The notes beneath the pieces are model-generated. The model was not told the DNA's origin, ran no database searches, and saw nothing but the letters and a program-made list of their open reading frames with translations. From assembly GCF_009936215.1 (NCBI RefSeq), contig NZ_AP019551.1, positions 186,001 through 250,000 of the forward strand: DNA of 64,000 nt, in the 5' to 3' direction. The stretch comes from Athalassotoga saccharophila (GTDB lineage: Bacteria > Thermotogota > Thermotogae > Mesoaciditogales > Mesoaciditogaceae). The position numbers and the translations under genes are program-made. Below, piece after piece: positions 7,046 to 12,883 of the stretch (position 1 is the first letter of the stretch; every line of letters starts with the position of its first letter).

Positions 7046-7672
7046 TTGAAAAAAGCATTTGTGTTGATTTTAATCTTATCAATGGCTATTTTTGCCTTTT
7101 CAGATGCCACAAATCAGGTACTTGCCGGAAAGATAATCGTTCTCGATCCCGAAAATGGAGGGTATGATTCGGGTCCAGTAGGGCCAACGGGTCTCATGGG
7201 AAAGGACATAAATCTCCAGGTCGCCCTCGATCTTGCGCAGATATTGAAACTTCAGGGTGCGACGGTGATCCTTACGCGTTCGACAGATACCTATGTGCCT
7301 TTAAAAAATAGAATAGATATAGCAAACAAAGCGAATGCTGACCTCTTTGTCTCTATAGCGCACAATTCAATTCAAGGAGCACCAAATGTAGACAGGCCGC
7401 AGGTCTTCTACTGGAGCACCTCTGATTCTTCACAACTTGCGGCCGAAATATTCTTAAAAGAATTCGAGAGATTCTTCAACACAAAAGGAAATCTCATAAG
7501 AGAACAGTTCATCGTTTTGCAATACGCTCAGGTTCCAGCGGTCGTAGTCGAGCCTTGCTTCATGTCAAATCCATCGCGAGAAAATTGGCTCAAAAGTGCC
7601 AAAAATCTCTGGCGTGAGGCTAACATATACGATATGGCCATCCTCGAATATTTCGACGAACTGAATTCATGA
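7046..7672 (+). CDS. Amidase_3-type N-acetylmuramoyl-L-alanine amidase homologue, probably inactive
   Basis: About 208 residues with a signal peptide (MKKAFVLILILSMAIFAFSD) and one Amidase_3 domain. The TTG at 7046 is behind GAGGTGAT and gives a compact signal peptide; a GTG at 7037 falls within that site. The family cleaves the MurNAc-L-Ala bond using a zinc held by His, Glu and His. Here those positions are changed: DPENGG (Asn37) stands where DPGHGG is usual, GLMGKD (Gly52) where the Glu ligand sits, and SIAHNS (Ala105-His106) where SIHANS is usual. The catalytic Glu survives (VVVEP, about 169). The fold is therefore kept while the metal site looks lost. A regulatory or peptidoglycan-binding role is inferred. 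The 3' end overlaps pyrE, which converges, by 6 nt. Confidence 0.75.
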   Translation: MKKAFVLILILSMAIFAFSDATNQVLAGKIIVLDPENGGYDSGPVGPTGLMGKDINLQVALDLAQILKLQGATVILTRSTDTYVPLKNRIDIANKANADLFVSIAHNSIQGAPNVDRPQVFYWSTSDSSQLAAEIFLKEFERFFNTKGNLIREQFIVLQYAQVPAVVVEPCFMSNPSRENWLKSAKNLWREANIYDMAILEYFDELNS

Positions 7673-8242
7673 CTCTTTCATCTTCCTTGTGCCCGGCTTT
7701 ACTAAAGGTATCCCATTTTGACAGAGAGGACATTCTTCACGCGTGTAATGCGTAAGGGGCAGATCTACCAAAGAAAGTACGTGTATTTCCCTTATTTGAT
7801 TTACAGATCCTCTGTTGACTATCGATGAAGCACATATCACGCGTGATCCAGCCTTTTCGACCAGATCGATGATTTCGCTCGTTGATTTTCCAGTTGTTAT
7901 AACGTCTTCGACAACGGCTATATTCTTGAAATCCGAAGGATCGAATTCTCTCCTGAATTTCATGACGCCATCATCGTCTCTCTCGGCAAAAAGAAATGGG
8001 ACGTTAAGGTGGCGCGCGACTTCGTATCCTATTATTATTCCTCCTATCGCTGGAGAGATAACACAATCGGGATTGTATTTTGATATTTTGACAGAAAGTT
8101 CATACCCAAGATCTTCCGCATACCATGGATATTTCAGTATTTTTGCGCACTGAACGTAAGAATCGGAGTGAAGGCCGGAAGAGAGTAAAAAATGGCCGTG
8201 AAGAATTGCGCCTGTCTCTTCAAGTAATCTTTTGTATTCCAT
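7667..8242 (-). CDS. pyrE: Orotate phosphoribosyltransferase
   Basis: 191 residues. It joins orotate and PRPP to make OMP, the fifth step of UMP synthesis. The PRPP-binding loop is clear (VVEDVITTGKST, about 109-120), as are the orotate-side motifs GHFLLSSGLHSDSY and PAIGGIIIGYEVA. The C-terminus carries a CPLCQNG motif, also seen in thermophile and archaeal-like PyrE proteins. It is the last gene of the pyr operon, starting 4 nt after pyrF with GAGGTGAAAAA before its ATG. Confidence 0.93.
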   Translation of the reverse strand: MEYKRLLEETGAILHGHFLLSSGLHSDSYVQCAKILKYPWYAEDLGYELSVKISKYNPDCVISPAIGGIIIGYEVARHLNVPFLFAERDDDGVMKFRREFDPSDFKNIAVVEDVITTGKSTSEIIDLVEKAGSRVICASSIVNRGSVNQIREIHVLSLVDLPLTHYTREECPLCQNGIPLVKPGTRKMKES

Positions 8243-8246
8243 TTTT

Positions 8247-9014
8247 TCACCTCAAAGATAGAAGTTTTGAGTAATCGTAAGAAGACTTTTCGGGATCGGC
8301 CGAAAAGATTATGGATCGAGACACGTTAACGAGTAAGTTTCTACCGTCAATTGAATTCATGACCTTTTGAACATCTCCTCCCTGCGCTCCGACACCGGGA
8401 ACGAGTATAAGGCTCTCATTTGCAATCTCATGGATTTCTCTTATCTTTTCTGCGAAAGTTGCCCCCACAACAAGGCCACAGTTTCCGTACCTTTTGTTTT
8501 TTTCGCTGACAAATTTTGCAACCTTTAAGTAAAGCGGAGGCGTGCCGTGGTACTCAAAATCAAACGCCCCTTGATTCGAGGAGAGAGACAGCACGAATGT
8601 GTATTTGTCCGTGTAAGAGAAGAATACTTCCATCGAGTCACTTCCCATGTAAGGCAAAACGGTTATGGCATCAAAGCCAAAGAATTCAAAAGCGGCCCTT
8701 GCGTACGCTTTCGCTGTTGAATCTATGTCCGAACGTTTGGCATCATATATGACGGGCAGATCTCCTATCAAATCACGTGTTTTCATCATGGTTTTCATTC
8801 CATCAGGCCCAAGTTGTTCGTAAAAGGCTGAATTTATTTTGTAAGCGCAGGCGAAATTTTTTGTTCTCTCGATTATTTCACGGTTAAATTCGTAAACTCC
8901 TTCCGCATTTTTAGAAAATCGAGACGGCAACCTCTCGTAATCGGTATCGAGACCTATGGTAAGCACGTTGGAGACGATCTCCATTCTTTTTTTTACCTTT
9001 TCCAAGAAATTCAT
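8247..9014 (-). CDS. pyrF: Orotidine 5'-phosphate decarboxylase
   Basis: 255 residues. It decarboxylates OMP to UMP, the last step of the pathway. The catalytic Asp-Lys-Asp cluster is in IYDAKRSDIDSTA (about 88-100), the phosphate-binding end in LVPGVGAQGGD, and the N-terminal GLDTD motif is present. Length and the AKRSDI form fit the longer group of bacterial PyrF proteins. The ATG lies behind AGGAGGATTCAT and overlaps the pyrD stop as ATGA, so the two are probably coupled. Confidence 0.93.
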   Translation of the reverse strand: MNFLEKVKKRMEIVSNVLTIGLDTDYERLPSRFSKNAEGVYEFNREIIERTKNFACAYKINSAFYEQLGPDGMKTMMKTRDLIGDLPVIYDAKRSDIDSTAKAYARAAFEFFGFDAITVLPYMGSDSMEVFFSYTDKYTFVLSLSSNQGAFDFEYHGTPPLYLKVAKFVSEKNKRYGNCGLVVGATFAEKIREIHEIANESLILVPGVGAQGGDVQKVMNSIDGRNLLVNVSRSIIFSADPEKSSYDYSKLLSLR

Positions 9015-9910
9015 ATGAATCCTCCTCTGTGGGATATGCCTATCAGATCTGCAAAGTTCATCTTCAAACTGTCAATTTTATTCTGAAGATCGTCCACAAT
9101 TCTGACCGCAGAAGACGGATTTATCATGAACTGGGTTCCAATCCCGACAAGAGATGATCCCGCCATGGCGTATTCGATAATGTCAGATGCATTTCTTACC
9201 CCTCCAAGACCTATTATCGAAAGATCGGGAAAGGCATCCTTTACCTGGTAAACCTTCCAAAGTATTACAGGCATAAAAGCGGGACCGCTAAGGCCCCCTT
9301 TGACTCCCTTTAAAAATGGTCTGCCGGTTTTCAAATTTATCCTCATTCCCTGAATCGAATTTCCTATGTTAACGATCTTTACGCCTGCATCGATGGCAAT
9401 CCGTGACTGGATAAGAGGATCGACGTCGGGAGAGATCTTGGCAATTAAAGGCTTTTTGGTCACTTCCCTGCATGATGCAAGCACCGATTTTGTCAGTTCA
9501 AAATCAGAAGATATCGTTTTGCCGCCAATGTTTGGACATGAAAGATTTATCTCTATCATGTCGGCGAATTCCTCAATTTTGCTTGTAACTTCGGCAAAAT
9601 CCTCCGGTCTTTCCCCTCCCACCGAAATTATCTTCACGCACTCTTTCGGCAAAGAGGCCGCTATTTCTTTGAACTTTTCAACTCCCGGGTTTTGAAGACC
9701 TATGGAATTCAAAAGTCCATTTTCAAGATAAAGGATTCTCGGTGGAATATTTCCCTGAATGGGTTTGGGAGTGACGGTCTTCGTGGTGAAGCCACCTATC
9801 TTTTCGGCCGAGACGTATTTAAAGAATTCGTCACCAAATCCCAACGGACCCGAGGCAGTTACTATAGGGTTTTTAAACTTTACTCCATCCACGATCACAG
9901 ATAAGTCCAT
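9011..9910 (-). CDS. pyrD: Dihydroorotate dehydrogenase (class 1B, PyrD subunit)
   Basis: 299 residues. It oxidises dihydroorotate to orotate with FMN. Motifs include TASGPLGFG at the N-terminus, INLSCPNIGG (about 123-132), AKISPDVD and GLGGVRNASD near the FMN phosphate site. Class 1B is shown by the adjoining pyrK, which supplies FAD and an iron-sulfur cluster so that NAD+ can be the acceptor; this pairing is established for the family. The ATG at 9910 is behind GGAGGTGG. A longer frame begins at 9991 but would lie far inside pyrK and add unrelated residues. It overlaps pyrK by 16 nt. Confidence 0.93.
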   Translation of the reverse strand: MDLSVIVDGVKFKNPIVTASGPLGFGDEFFKYVSAEKIGGFTTKTVTPKPIQGNIPPRILYLENGLLNSIGLQNPGVEKFKEIAASLPKECVKIISVGGERPEDFAEVTSKIEEFADMIEINLSCPNIGGKTISSDFELTKSVLASCREVTKKPLIAKISPDVDPLIQSRIAIDAGVKIVNIGNSIQGMRINLKTGRPFLKGVKGGLSGPAFMPVILWKVYQVKDAFPDLSIIGLGGVRNASDIIEYAMAGSSLVGIGTQFMINPSSAVRIVDDLQNKIDSLKMNFADLIGISHRGGFI

Positions 9911-10554
9911 TCTAAATCCACCTCCGATGCCTTGAAGGTCGGGCCGTCTTTGCAAACGAATTTCACACCATCTGAGGTCATGACCGCGCACCCTTCACAC
10001 ATACCCCTTGCGCAGGCCATTTTTTCTTCCATTATAAGGTAAAGGGATCTTTGACCCAAAGCCTTTTTTACACTTTTTAACATCTCTATTGGGCCGCACG
10101 CTATGATATTTTCAAGTGTTGAAAATTTGACGATCTCTATCGGGGTGGTTGGATCAAAGACAGATACAGAACTGCCGGGTATATCGACAAAATCGAAAAG
10201 TTCCTCGTCTGCAAATCCAGCAACAAGTTCTCCGAATCCATACTTGGAGATGTAGAAATGAATCGGTGCATATCCTACACCGCCGGATATCAAAAGTGGG
10301 TCTTTAAGTTCTGGCAGAGGATTACCAAAAGGACCATTCATTATAACGGGGGCTCTGTCAAGGAATTTTTCGATCTCCCCTCCGCTTTTTATAAGAAAAG
10401 AGATCTTTCCATCTTTTAAGTCATAGACACTGAATGGCCTTGGAATGTAAGGCCCCAAAGAGGTAGTTATTGTAAAAAACTGGCCAGGAAGTGCTTTGCC
10501 TTCGTAAGGGAGATCAAGCAAGATGTAAGATCCCTTTGCCGATCTTTTCAACAT
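9895..10554 (-). CDS. pyrK: Dihydroorotate dehydrogenase electron-transfer subunit
   Basis: About 219 residues. It carries electrons from PyrD to NAD+. The FAD motif RPFSVYD is near residue 42, and a [2Fe-2S] cluster site lies near the C-terminus with four cysteines (CARGMCEGC, then FVCKDG). The ATG at 10554 is preceded by AAGGAAGGCAGGTG at good spacing; a TTG at 10578 lacks a convincing site. The gene overlaps the end of pyrC by 41 nt and the start of pyrD by 16 nt, consistent with tight operon packing. The short N-terminus before the flavin domain is a little reduced compared with usual PyrK proteins. Confidence 0.88.
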   Translation of the reverse strand: MLKRSAKGSYILLDLPYEGKALPGQFFTITTSLGPYIPRPFSVYDLKDGKISFLIKSGGEIEKFLDRAPVIMNGPFGNPLPELKDPLLISGGVGYAPIHFYISKYGFGELVAGFADEELFDFVDIPGSSVSVFDPTTPIEIVKFSTLENIIACGPIEMLKSVKKALGQRSLYLIMEEKMACARGMCEGCAVMTSDGVKFVCKDGPTFKASEVDLEWTYL

Positions 10555-11776
10555 CTCCAAACACCTGCCTTCCTTCAACGAATGTCGATATTACCCTTCC
10601 TTTCAATCTCTTACCGAGAAAAGGTGTATTAGATGACCTTGACATGAGAGTCTCTTTTGAGACGTGCCATTCGCCTTCCGGATCGAAGATGACGAAATTG
10701 GCAGGAAGACCTTCCTTTATCCTTCCAACCTCAAGGCCATATATCTTTGCGGGATCGGAACTTACCTTTTTCAGAAGTTTTTCAATCTTGAGGCCATTTT
10801 TCGAAACGATGATGATCTCATTTAGAAGAGTTTCAAATCCAATTATTCCAAATGGTGCGGATTGGAATTCCACCTCTTTTTCTTCATTTAAATAGGGAGC
10901 ATGATCGGTGATTATCGCATCTATCGTGTCATCTTCTATTCCTTCATATAGGGCTCTTTGATCGTGAGATGTGGGAAATGGTGGATTTATCTTTTTGTAT
11001 GTATCGTAATCGTAAAGGTCTTCGTCTTTGAAGACAAGATGATGTATGCAAACATCACAAGTTACATTTATTCCATCCTTCTTTGCCTGTCTTATCAAAT
11101 TGACAGACCTCGCCGTTGAAACGTGGGCGATATGGATGTGGGCCTTTGTCAGGTATGAAAGTTCTATCTCACGCGCAACACTTATAGATTCGGCAACATC
11201 GGGAATCCCGCTTATACCGTAAAGGGTAGAAAACCACCCTTCTCTCATGTGTCCCTTACCAAGGTATTTGTCCTGACAGTGAGAGATTATCGGAAGTCCA
11301 AGTTCATGGGCGTATTCCATCGCATGCCTCGCAAGGCCTGCATCATCCAAAAAGTTTCCATCATCTGAAAACCCAACAACACCTGCCCGTGCCATCCTTA
11401 GCATTTCAGAAAGTTCTTTTCCATCTCTATTTTTAGTTATTGCACCGACGATCTTCAAGTCCAAGTTGGTCTTTTTCGCCTTTTCCTTAAGATAAATCAC
11501 CATAGTCTCACTGTCTATAGCGGGAGTTGTATTTGGCATTGCAAAGGCCGTCGTTATTCCACCGTGAAATGCTGCCATGGCACCTGAGAACAGGTCTTCT
11601 CTCTTTGTCTGACCGGGATCTCTGAAATGTGCATGGGTATCAACAAGTCCCGGAAGAATCCACACGTCACCGAGGTCTAAACGATCTCCTTCTCTTTGAA
11701 CAAAAGTCTTTTCAAAGGAGATCTCCCCGCTGTAAAACCTTTCTCCATCGAAAATTTTAGCGCTTTCGAAGATCAA
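10514..11776 (-). CDS. pyrC: Dihydroorotase
   Basis: 420 residues. It closes carbamoyl-aspartate to dihydroorotate. The amidohydrolase metal site is visible: DTHAHFRDPGQ (about 45-55), later metal His residues in SHCQDK and IHIAHVST, and the catalytic Asp in ITDHAPY (about 299-305). Length and motif spacing fit class I dihydroorotases. The start is a TTG at 11776 behind GGGAGGTG and forms a TTGA overlap with the stop of pyrB, so translation is probably coupled. Confidence 0.92.
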   Translation of the reverse strand: MIFESAKIFDGERFYSGEISFEKTFVQREGDRLDLGDVWILPGLVDTHAHFRDPGQTKREDLFSGAMAAFHGGITTAFAMPNTTPAIDSETMVIYLKEKAKKTNLDLKIVGAITKNRDGKELSEMLRMARAGVVGFSDDGNFLDDAGLARHAMEYAHELGLPIISHCQDKYLGKGHMREGWFSTLYGISGIPDVAESISVAREIELSYLTKAHIHIAHVSTARSVNLIRQAKKDGINVTCDVCIHHLVFKDEDLYDYDTYKKINPPFPTSHDQRALYEGIEDDTIDAIITDHAPYLNEEKEVEFQSAPFGIIGFETLLNEIIIVSKNGLKIEKLLKKVSSDPAKIYGLEVGRIKEGLPANFVIFDPEGEWHVSKETLMSRSSNTPFLGKRLKGRVISTFVEGRQVFGDVEKIGKGILHLA

Positions 11777-12681
11777 TTTTCCACACCTCCCAAAATAAGA
11801 TCGAGCAAGGCCATTCTTACAAAGACACCGTTTGTAACCTGTTCTTCAACGACAGATGAATCTGAATCTGAAACCTCTTCCATAACCTCTACTCCTCTGT
11901 TCATCGGACCCGGATGCATGAAAATGGGATTGGCAATTTCCATTCTTTTGGAATTTATTCCGTAAAATTCGTTATACTCATCAAGGGTTGAAAAGAATCC
12001 ACCGCTTTGGCGCTCAAGTTGGACTCTCAATCCCATTACAGCGTCAGACTCCGAGATACTTTTTTCAACATCATGTGAAATCCTCACGCCGTAATTTTCA
12101 AAATACTCAGGAATAAAACTTTCAGGACCGACCAAGGTTACATCGGCACCGAGCATTTTTAGCAGTTTTGCATTTGACCTTGCAACCCTGCTGTGAAGGA
12201 TATCTCCTATTATGGCTATCTTGATTTTGAAATCTCCGAATTTTTCCCAGATCGTGTAAGCATCGAGCAGGGCCTGAGTAGGATGGGCATGGATTCCGTC
12301 ACCTGCGTTGATAACGGGTGAATTCGTGTATTTTTTCATCATCATCGGACTGCCAGGTTCCGAATGTCTTATGACGTAGAGATCTATGCCCATGGCATCG
12401 AGAGTTTTAACCGTATCTTTGAAAGATTCTCCCTTGTTCAAAGAACTCGTAGAGGCGGTAAAGTTGACGACATCTGCACCAAGCCTTTTTGCAGCCAATT
12501 CAAAAGAAATCCTCGTTCTTGTCGAGGATTCAAAAAAGAGAGTGCAAATGCTTTTTCCTTTTAAAGATGTCAATTTTTGAAAACCATGCTTTTTAAAAAA
12601 TTGGGCCCTCTCGAATATCTCTTTGACATCACTGATTTCAAGATCATCAACGTCAAAAAGGTCCTTTCCTCGAATACTCAT
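11773..12681 (-). CDS. pyrB: Aspartate carbamoyltransferase catalytic subunit
   Basis: About 302 residues. It makes carbamoyl-aspartate, the committed step of pyrimidine synthesis. The carbamoyl-phosphate motif is FESSTRTRISFE (about 51-62), a second site is LNKGESF, and the aspartate-site motif is HPTQALLDA. No pyrI regulatory subunit is encoded beside it, so control must act mainly on expression. Two ATG codons are adjacent at 12684 and 12681; AGGAGG is better spaced for the second. The stop codon of a 49-residue leader peptide overlaps this start, which would couple translation of pyrB to the leader. Confidence 0.93.
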   Translation of the reverse strand: MSIRGKDLFDVDDLEISDVKEIFERAQFFKKHGFQKLTSLKGKSICTLFFESSTRTRISFELAAKRLGADVVNFTASTSSLNKGESFKDTVKTLDAMGIDLYVIRHSEPGSPMMMKKYTNSPVINAGDGIHAHPTQALLDAYTIWEKFGDFKIKIAIIGDILHSRVARSNAKLLKMLGADVTLVGPESFIPEYFENYGVRISHDVEKSISESDAVMGLRVQLERQSGGFFSTLDEYNEFYGINSKRMEIANPIFMHPGPMNRGVEVMEEVSDSDSSVVEEQVTNGVFVRMALLDLILGGVEN

Positions 12682-12830
12682 CATTTACCTCCTTTGTGAT
12701 ATATAAAAAAAGGACGCCTTTTAAAGGCGTCCTTGAAAATAAATTCGATAAATTCGAGAAGGTAACTTTCACTTTCCACATCAGGAAAGACAAAATACTC
12801 CGAATTTTTTAACTTAAGCGATAAAATCAT
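12681..12830 (-). CDS. pyr operon leader peptide (49 residues)
   Basis: A short frame starting with ATG at 12830 behind AAGGAGGAAAAG, ending in TGA at 12681-12683 and overlapping the pyrB start. It encodes a peptide beginning MILSLKLKNSEYFVFPDVE and ending FFIYHKGGK. The whole terminator hairpin (12710-12734) lies inside this frame, after a U-rich stretch (GAATTTATCGAATTTATTTTC). This matches in layout the 44-residue pyrBI leader of E. coli, where the distance between ribosome and polymerase reads the UTP pool (established for that system). Function here is inferred; no coding homology to the E. coli peptide is claimed. It is too short for routine ORF calling. Confidence 0.75.
   Translation of the reverse strand: MILSLKLKNSEYFVFPDVESESYLLEFIEFIFKDAFKRRPFFIYHKGGK
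12705..12734 (-). terminator. Intrinsic terminator / attenuator before pyrB
   Basis: An 11-bp perfect stem (AAGGACGCCTT / AAGGCGTCCTT) with a 3-nt loop, followed by seven T residues. It lies about 110 nt after the likely transcription start and inside the leader reading frame, so a trailing ribosome would prevent the stem from forming. It can only act on the pyr transcript. Confidence 0.85.
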
Positions 12831-12854
12831 CTTTTCCTCCTTAAGCCAAAAGGG

Positions 12855-12883
12855 ATTATACTATTAATTTTTCAAAAAGTCAA
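12855..12883 (-). promoter_or_regulatory. Sigma-70-type promoter of the pyr operon
   Basis: The -35 TTGACT (12878-12883) and -10 TATAAT (12855-12860) are separated by exactly 17 nt. This near-perfect promoter would start transcription around 12848, a few bases before the ribosome binding site of the leader peptide. A strong promoter followed by an attenuator is the expected logic for nucleotide-pool control. Confidence 0.85.

Follow-up and report, generated by a model that had tools for sequence, protein, structure and literature searches.

The pyrimidine operon of the window, which is the whole 64,000-nucleotide stretch analyzed here, is probably controlled by a translation-coupled transcription attenuator of the pyrBI design lying upstream of pyrBCKDFE (Table 1). 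NCBIfam matches confirm the gene order pyrB-C-K-D-F-E, and the pyrimidine operon is complete. Judged by its sequence, the leader has the anatomy of the pyrBI kind: a leader frame encoding MILSLKLKNSEYFVFPDVESESYLLEFIEFIFKDAFKRRPFFIYHKGGK (49 aa, then the stop) covers the terminator before pyrB, and its translation is indicated by the Shine-Dalgarno motif and by conservation of the frame. The T run behind the terminator extends to about 12704. The first-pass annotation had already described the promoter, the AGGAGG-ATG, the 49-codon frame through an 11-bp terminator, and the stop on the pyrB start codon, and its coordinates proved accurate. Its label of a Thermotogota-type operon is compatible with the observations.

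Table 1. Features of the pyrimidine operon and its leader (positions within the window)
Feature	Position	Strand	Basis
Promoter TTGACT-17-TATAAT	12855..12883	minus	consensus scan, 11/12 matches
Shine-Dalgarno AAGGAGG of leader frame	12836..12842	minus	sequence; identical in G001 and G002
Leader frame, 49 codons	12681..12830 (ATG at 12830)	minus	ORF list
Predicted hairpin within leader frame, possible pause hairpin	12750..12807	minus	RNA fold
U-rich stretch adjoining terminator stem, candidate UTP-sensitive pausing region	12735..12765	minus	composition
Intrinsic terminator (attenuator), 11 bp, 6 G-C, loop 3	12710..12734	minus	scan
Shine-Dalgarno AAAGGAGG of pyrB, within leader frame	12688..12695	minus	sequence
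Leader stop TGA overlapping pyrB ATG (ATGA)	12683..12681 (TGA); 12684..12682 (ATG)	minus	
pyrB, aspartate carbamoyltransferase catalytic subunit, non-fused type	11773..12684	minus	NF002032, 370 bits, cut-off 263
Remaining operon genes together	7667..11776	minus	NCBIfam matches
pyrC	11776-10514	minus	NCBIfam
pyrK-like	10578-9895	minus	NCBIfam
pyrD	about 9916-9011	minus	NCBIfam
pyrF	9014-8247	minus	NCBIfam
pyrE	8242-7667	minus	NCBIfam

In the pyrBI/pyrL mechanism, low UTP slows RNA polymerase on a U-rich leader and the ribosome catches up (PMC10135430). In the window, RNA polymerase would start from the promoter and transcribe the leader, and a ribosome would load at the AAGGAGG-AUG. At low UTP, polymerase would move slowly through the U-rich leader and the ribosome would catch up, covering the 5' arm of the stem at 12734, so that no terminator would form and transcription would continue into pyrB. 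At high UTP, polymerase would be fast, the terminator would form ahead of the ribosome, and transcription would stop. A ribosome that reads through would finish on the pyrB start codon and probably couple translation of pyrB to that of the leader; we infer both this coupling and the blocking of the terminator by the ribosome in vivo.

Is UTP really the signal? It is the likeliest one, as far as the leader and its operon allow us to judge. From the ATG to the stem the leader has 41 U in 96 nt (43%), compared to 34% in E. coli pyrL, which puts its U content at the 95th to 99th percentile of the genome: equally U-rich windows account for 1.1% of those in coding sequence, 4.4% of those at gene starts, and 5.3% of those in non-coding sequence. 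These weaker genome-wide figures replace the one from the 64-kb window alone, in which 1 of 1,065 coding windows is as U-rich. The U-richness of the leader is only moderately unusual, and its U residues cluster no more tightly than the composition of the leader would predict. The argument for UTP is limited accordingly, because U-richness of this degree is not special enough to serve as proof. Moreover, leaders of the same layout in genus g25 and in G020 contain only 21 to 27% U, implying that a frame through the terminator does not need U sensing.

An attenuator of the same layout could respond to translation capacity, GTP, aminoacyl-tRNA, or growth rate instead of UTP, which we regard as unlikely. 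Retention of the layout without U-richness in g25 and G020 is in its favor, as are the many Phe, Leu, and Ile codons of the leaders, a richness that follows from their U content. However, no run of a single control codon recurs in G000, G001, and G002, amino-acid attenuators place the terminator >20 bp beyond the leader (PMC4824070) whereas the frame here covers it, and the operon makes pyrimidines, whose natural end-product signal is UTP. An amino-acid attenuator was rejected as a class assignment: the control-codon run, the antiterminator, and a terminator beyond the leader stop are all absent, and the terminator lies inside the frame. Rfam gave no match on the window; on the leader, Phe_leader was sub-threshold (29.9 bits against a cut-off of 55), and SQ2397, L20_leader, and PyrR also stayed below their cut-offs.

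Directly after the -10 box lies CCCTTTTGG (12854-12842, minus strand), with CTTTGG in G002 and CTTTGA in G001. UTP-dependent stuttering operates at E. coli pyr promoters, and, speculatively, the U-run near the expected start site might permit it here as well.

The transcript offers little to an alternative-hairpin switch. Leader and terminator together fold with a z-score of -4.8, and the leader without its terminator with -2.25; the inner stem of the predicted leader hairpin is CUUUCC/GGAAAG (12789-12784 / 12777-12772). Its sequence is not conserved, and no loop sequence is common to the hairpins of G000, G001, and G002. The best antiterminator duplex in the leader reaches -6.1 kcal/mol, compared to -17.2 for the terminator, and is weaker than in shuffled sequences (p = 0.99); the E. 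coli pyrBI leader gives a like result. Since no pairing beats the shuffles, a switch between alternative hairpins is unlikely by these fold predictions, and masking of the stem by the ribosome is the remaining simple route, one that pyrBI also takes (PMC5021804, PMC10135430).

PyrR has been lost from the window's genus and kept by its sisters. A single-sequence search and the curated model NF003549 detected the protein in none of the four genomes of the genus, and each of the six remaining genomes of the family has pyrR beside pyrB. Nor did Rfam detect a PyrR RNA in the window or in the genus; the window leader scores 20.5 bits with that model against a cut-off of 54, a test that is weak alone because the model also misses the pyr leaders of the PyrR-carrying sisters. 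The search for pyrR and PyrR-binding loops that the first-pass annotation had proposed therefore found neither in the four genomes, and as regards PyrR and pairing the leader shows neither a regulatory protein nor an antiterminator. A PyrR-controlled attenuator was rejected as a class assignment, as PyrR protein and PyrR-binding RNA were both missing.

In the sister genera (family f1, L005-L010, upstream of pyrR), the leader frame ends near the foot of the terminator and, in G005, runs through it. Because a ribosome halted at a stop codon shields as many as 12 nt beyond it (PMC4833913), the stem would be masked in most of the sister leaders as well. Their leader frame also contains a hairpin that resembles the PyrR-binding loop and goes undetected by the Rfam PyrR model. 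It is this hairpin, together with the pyrR gene beside pyrB in the same genera and the stable hairpin of the window leader, that speaks for control by an unrecognised PyrR or another RNA-binding protein. We consider such control quite improbable in the window, given that neither the single sequence nor the curated HMM finds PyrR in the four genomes of its genus, that no PyrR RNA is detected there, and that the leaders have no antiterminator and no common loop.

Full leaders within the window's genus come from three genomes (G000, G001, and G002), a comparison in which pyrB identity to the window's gene is 75 to 78%. The three have promoter, ribosome-binding site, and terminator in common, and their leader peptides are unrelated. 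The -35 and -10 regions of G001 and G002 match the leader promoter, and the terminator stem is common to both and also to G003 as far as its contig reaches (it ends 49 nt upstream of pyrB). The distance from the start codon to GGACGCC is 98 nt in G000, 106 nt in G001 (115 nt with an alternative start), and 112 nt in G002; the terminator is read as AAG GAC GCC in G000 and as AGG ACG CCT in G001 and G002. The frame on the terminator is thus displaced between G000 and the other two and open in each, and the three leaders combined give p = 3e-4. A frame that is displaced yet open, with unrelated peptides, fits selection for translation in which the peptide sequence is unimportant. The comparison, which covers three sequences only, suggests that translation across the stem is selected rather than the peptide, as expected of the pyrBI type; the leader peptides had no match in Pfam. 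A point against the attenuator reading is a second, TTG-led frame of the window (12793-12653, minus strand), which also passes through the terminator into pyrB; G001 and G002 use the counterpart of this frame.

The alignment proposed in the first-pass annotation upheld the stem and the open frame within the genus; the stop overlap is not conserved there, because in G001 the stop comes 41 nt ahead of pyrB and in G002 the frame extends 29 nt into the gene. These positions bear on the idea that the leader frame serves only to raise pyrB translation, through reinitiation or coupling, and that the terminator is a fixed, non-sensing brake. A leader gene can increase translation of the gene behind it (PMC4833913), and the ATGA overlap of stop and start recurs in G046, G048, and G080-G082, with GTGA in G058. 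Even so, this reading is very improbable, as it leaves unexplained why the frame begins about 100 nt before the terminator with its own promoter in the 5' region, and the overlap is not kept in G001 and G002.

Could such a frame arise by chance? For the window leader alone, 4% of dinucleotide shuffles of the 170 nt before the stem, with terminator and T tract kept fixed, yield a frame with an SD and 25 or more codons that reaches the terminator stem (p = 0.04). By itself the leader is suggestive only, as weak evidence against chance. Across the phylum, sampled at one genome per species, SD-led frames reach the stem in 18 of 22 leaders compared to 2.2 expected (P = 1.8e-16). With at most one leader per genus, and genera with both outcomes represented by the unfavourable leader, the count is 9 of 12 against 1.1 expected (P = 1.5e-8). 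The identical test recovers E. coli pyrL. Among the failing leaders, G008 and G009 stop 11 and 5 nt before the stem, G019 stops inside it, and G020 has a through-frame with a weaker Shine-Dalgarno motif. In G024, missed by the terminator filter, the frame also ends inside its stem, and the leaders L022 and L025 of fused pyrBI genes show the same layout, judged by eye.

Within the genome, the attenuator scan covered the 1.96-Mb main contig, all but about 87 kb of the assembly. It found 27 terminators that precede a gene without directly following another, 3 of them with a frame through, and the pyr leader is the only through-terminator frame on that contig with an ATG and with more than 26 nt before the stem. 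Among the matches listed for pyrB genes of other phyla, a terminator occupies that place in 4 of 78 and such a frame occurs in 1 of 78. As far as sequence comparison goes, the comparative tests are decisive where the single-leader test is weak. Stop codons are scarce in every frame of terminators and T tracts, and the window leader alone reaches only p = 0.04, but an open frame by chance is scarcely credible against a phylum-wide excess of P about 1e-16, a genus-level one of 1e-8, and the rarity of such frames among those other phyla.

Other leaders of the phylum add variations of their own. In genus g25, a single leader frame upstream of pyrB (L014 in G058, L015 in G048, L032 in G082, L033 in G080, and L034 in G081) traverses a tandem pair of intrinsic terminators before stopping at the pyrB start; these leaders are not U-rich and encode a short conserved peptide, LN(R/K)C...SP. 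In G023 and G078, a purine-sensing RNA precedes the pyrimidine gene: purine riboswitch aptamers (RF00167) lie directly upstream of pyrB at L020:1128-1230 (G023, 75.6 bits) and L038:126-228 (G078, 71.7 bits).

Of the proposal in the first-pass annotation of a UTP-sensitive, pyrBI-like attenuator, the design, the absence of PyrR, the lack of an antiterminator, and the conservation all held up, and the UTP step stays presumptive, U-richness being moderate. It had also suggested that such attenuation had arisen, or been kept, in a distant lineage; within the phylum, keeping is favored, as PyrR-carrying sister genera also have the leader frame. The frame of these sisters reaches a terminator of like kind, so that, most simply, the leader design probably came first and PyrR was lost from the window's genus only later. 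More tentatively, and with some doubt on our part, a leader frame over a terminator might be the ancestral platform of pyr control in the phylum, into which different sensors were plugged: UTP-dependent pausing, PyrR, or tandem terminators. The window's genus would then depend on UTP-dependent polymerase pausing alone after PyrR loss, PyrR of the sister genera would bind the hairpin within the leader frame and block the leader ribosome, and g25 would carry its two tandem terminators beneath one leader frame.

The textbook example of UTP-sensitive attenuation without a repressor comes from the enterobacteria. In the open-access literature, with most subscription papers outside this scope, no description of such a pyr attenuator in the phylum was found. 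If our reading is true, the ribosome acts as antiterminator of pyr operons far more commonly than textbooks suggest, with and without PyrR, and close coupling of transcription and translation is implied in these bacteria. A family in which PyrR is kept by some genera and lost by another would offer a natural before-and-after case of the change from an RNA-protein switch to direct substrate sensing.

How does the window compare with known systems? Amino-acid attenuators (trp, his, and phe leaders) likewise combine a leader peptide with a terminator; in contrast, the window frame overlaps the terminator, and there is neither an antiterminator nor a control-codon run. The PyrR-dependent pyr attenuators of Bacillus subtilis (RF00515) also place an intrinsic terminator before pyr genes, but the window lacks PyrR, the binding loop, and the antiterminator, and its leader frame covers the terminator. 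The Thermus pyr operon has a leader frame and an attenuator, and PyrR exerts its control on translation of the leader peptide. The sister genera with PyrR resemble this layout, whereas in the window's genus neither PyrR nor its RNA was detected. E. coli pyrBI with its PyrL leader differs in that its stop lies 3 nt before pyrB, whereas the window stop overlaps the pyrB start; it also belongs to another phylum, the U-rich stretch of the window touches the stem, and in the window's relatives the layout occurs together with PyrR or with a tandem pair of terminators. In other respects the two are alike: the frames are of similar length (49 codons in the window, 44 in E. coli), begin about 90 to 100 nt before the terminator, and run through it just before pyrB, and both leaders are U-rich, though only moderately unusually so in the window, with a hairpin upstream of the terminator, no antiterminator, and no regulatory protein. 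This likeness is likely the result of convergence with the E. coli system rather than of descent.
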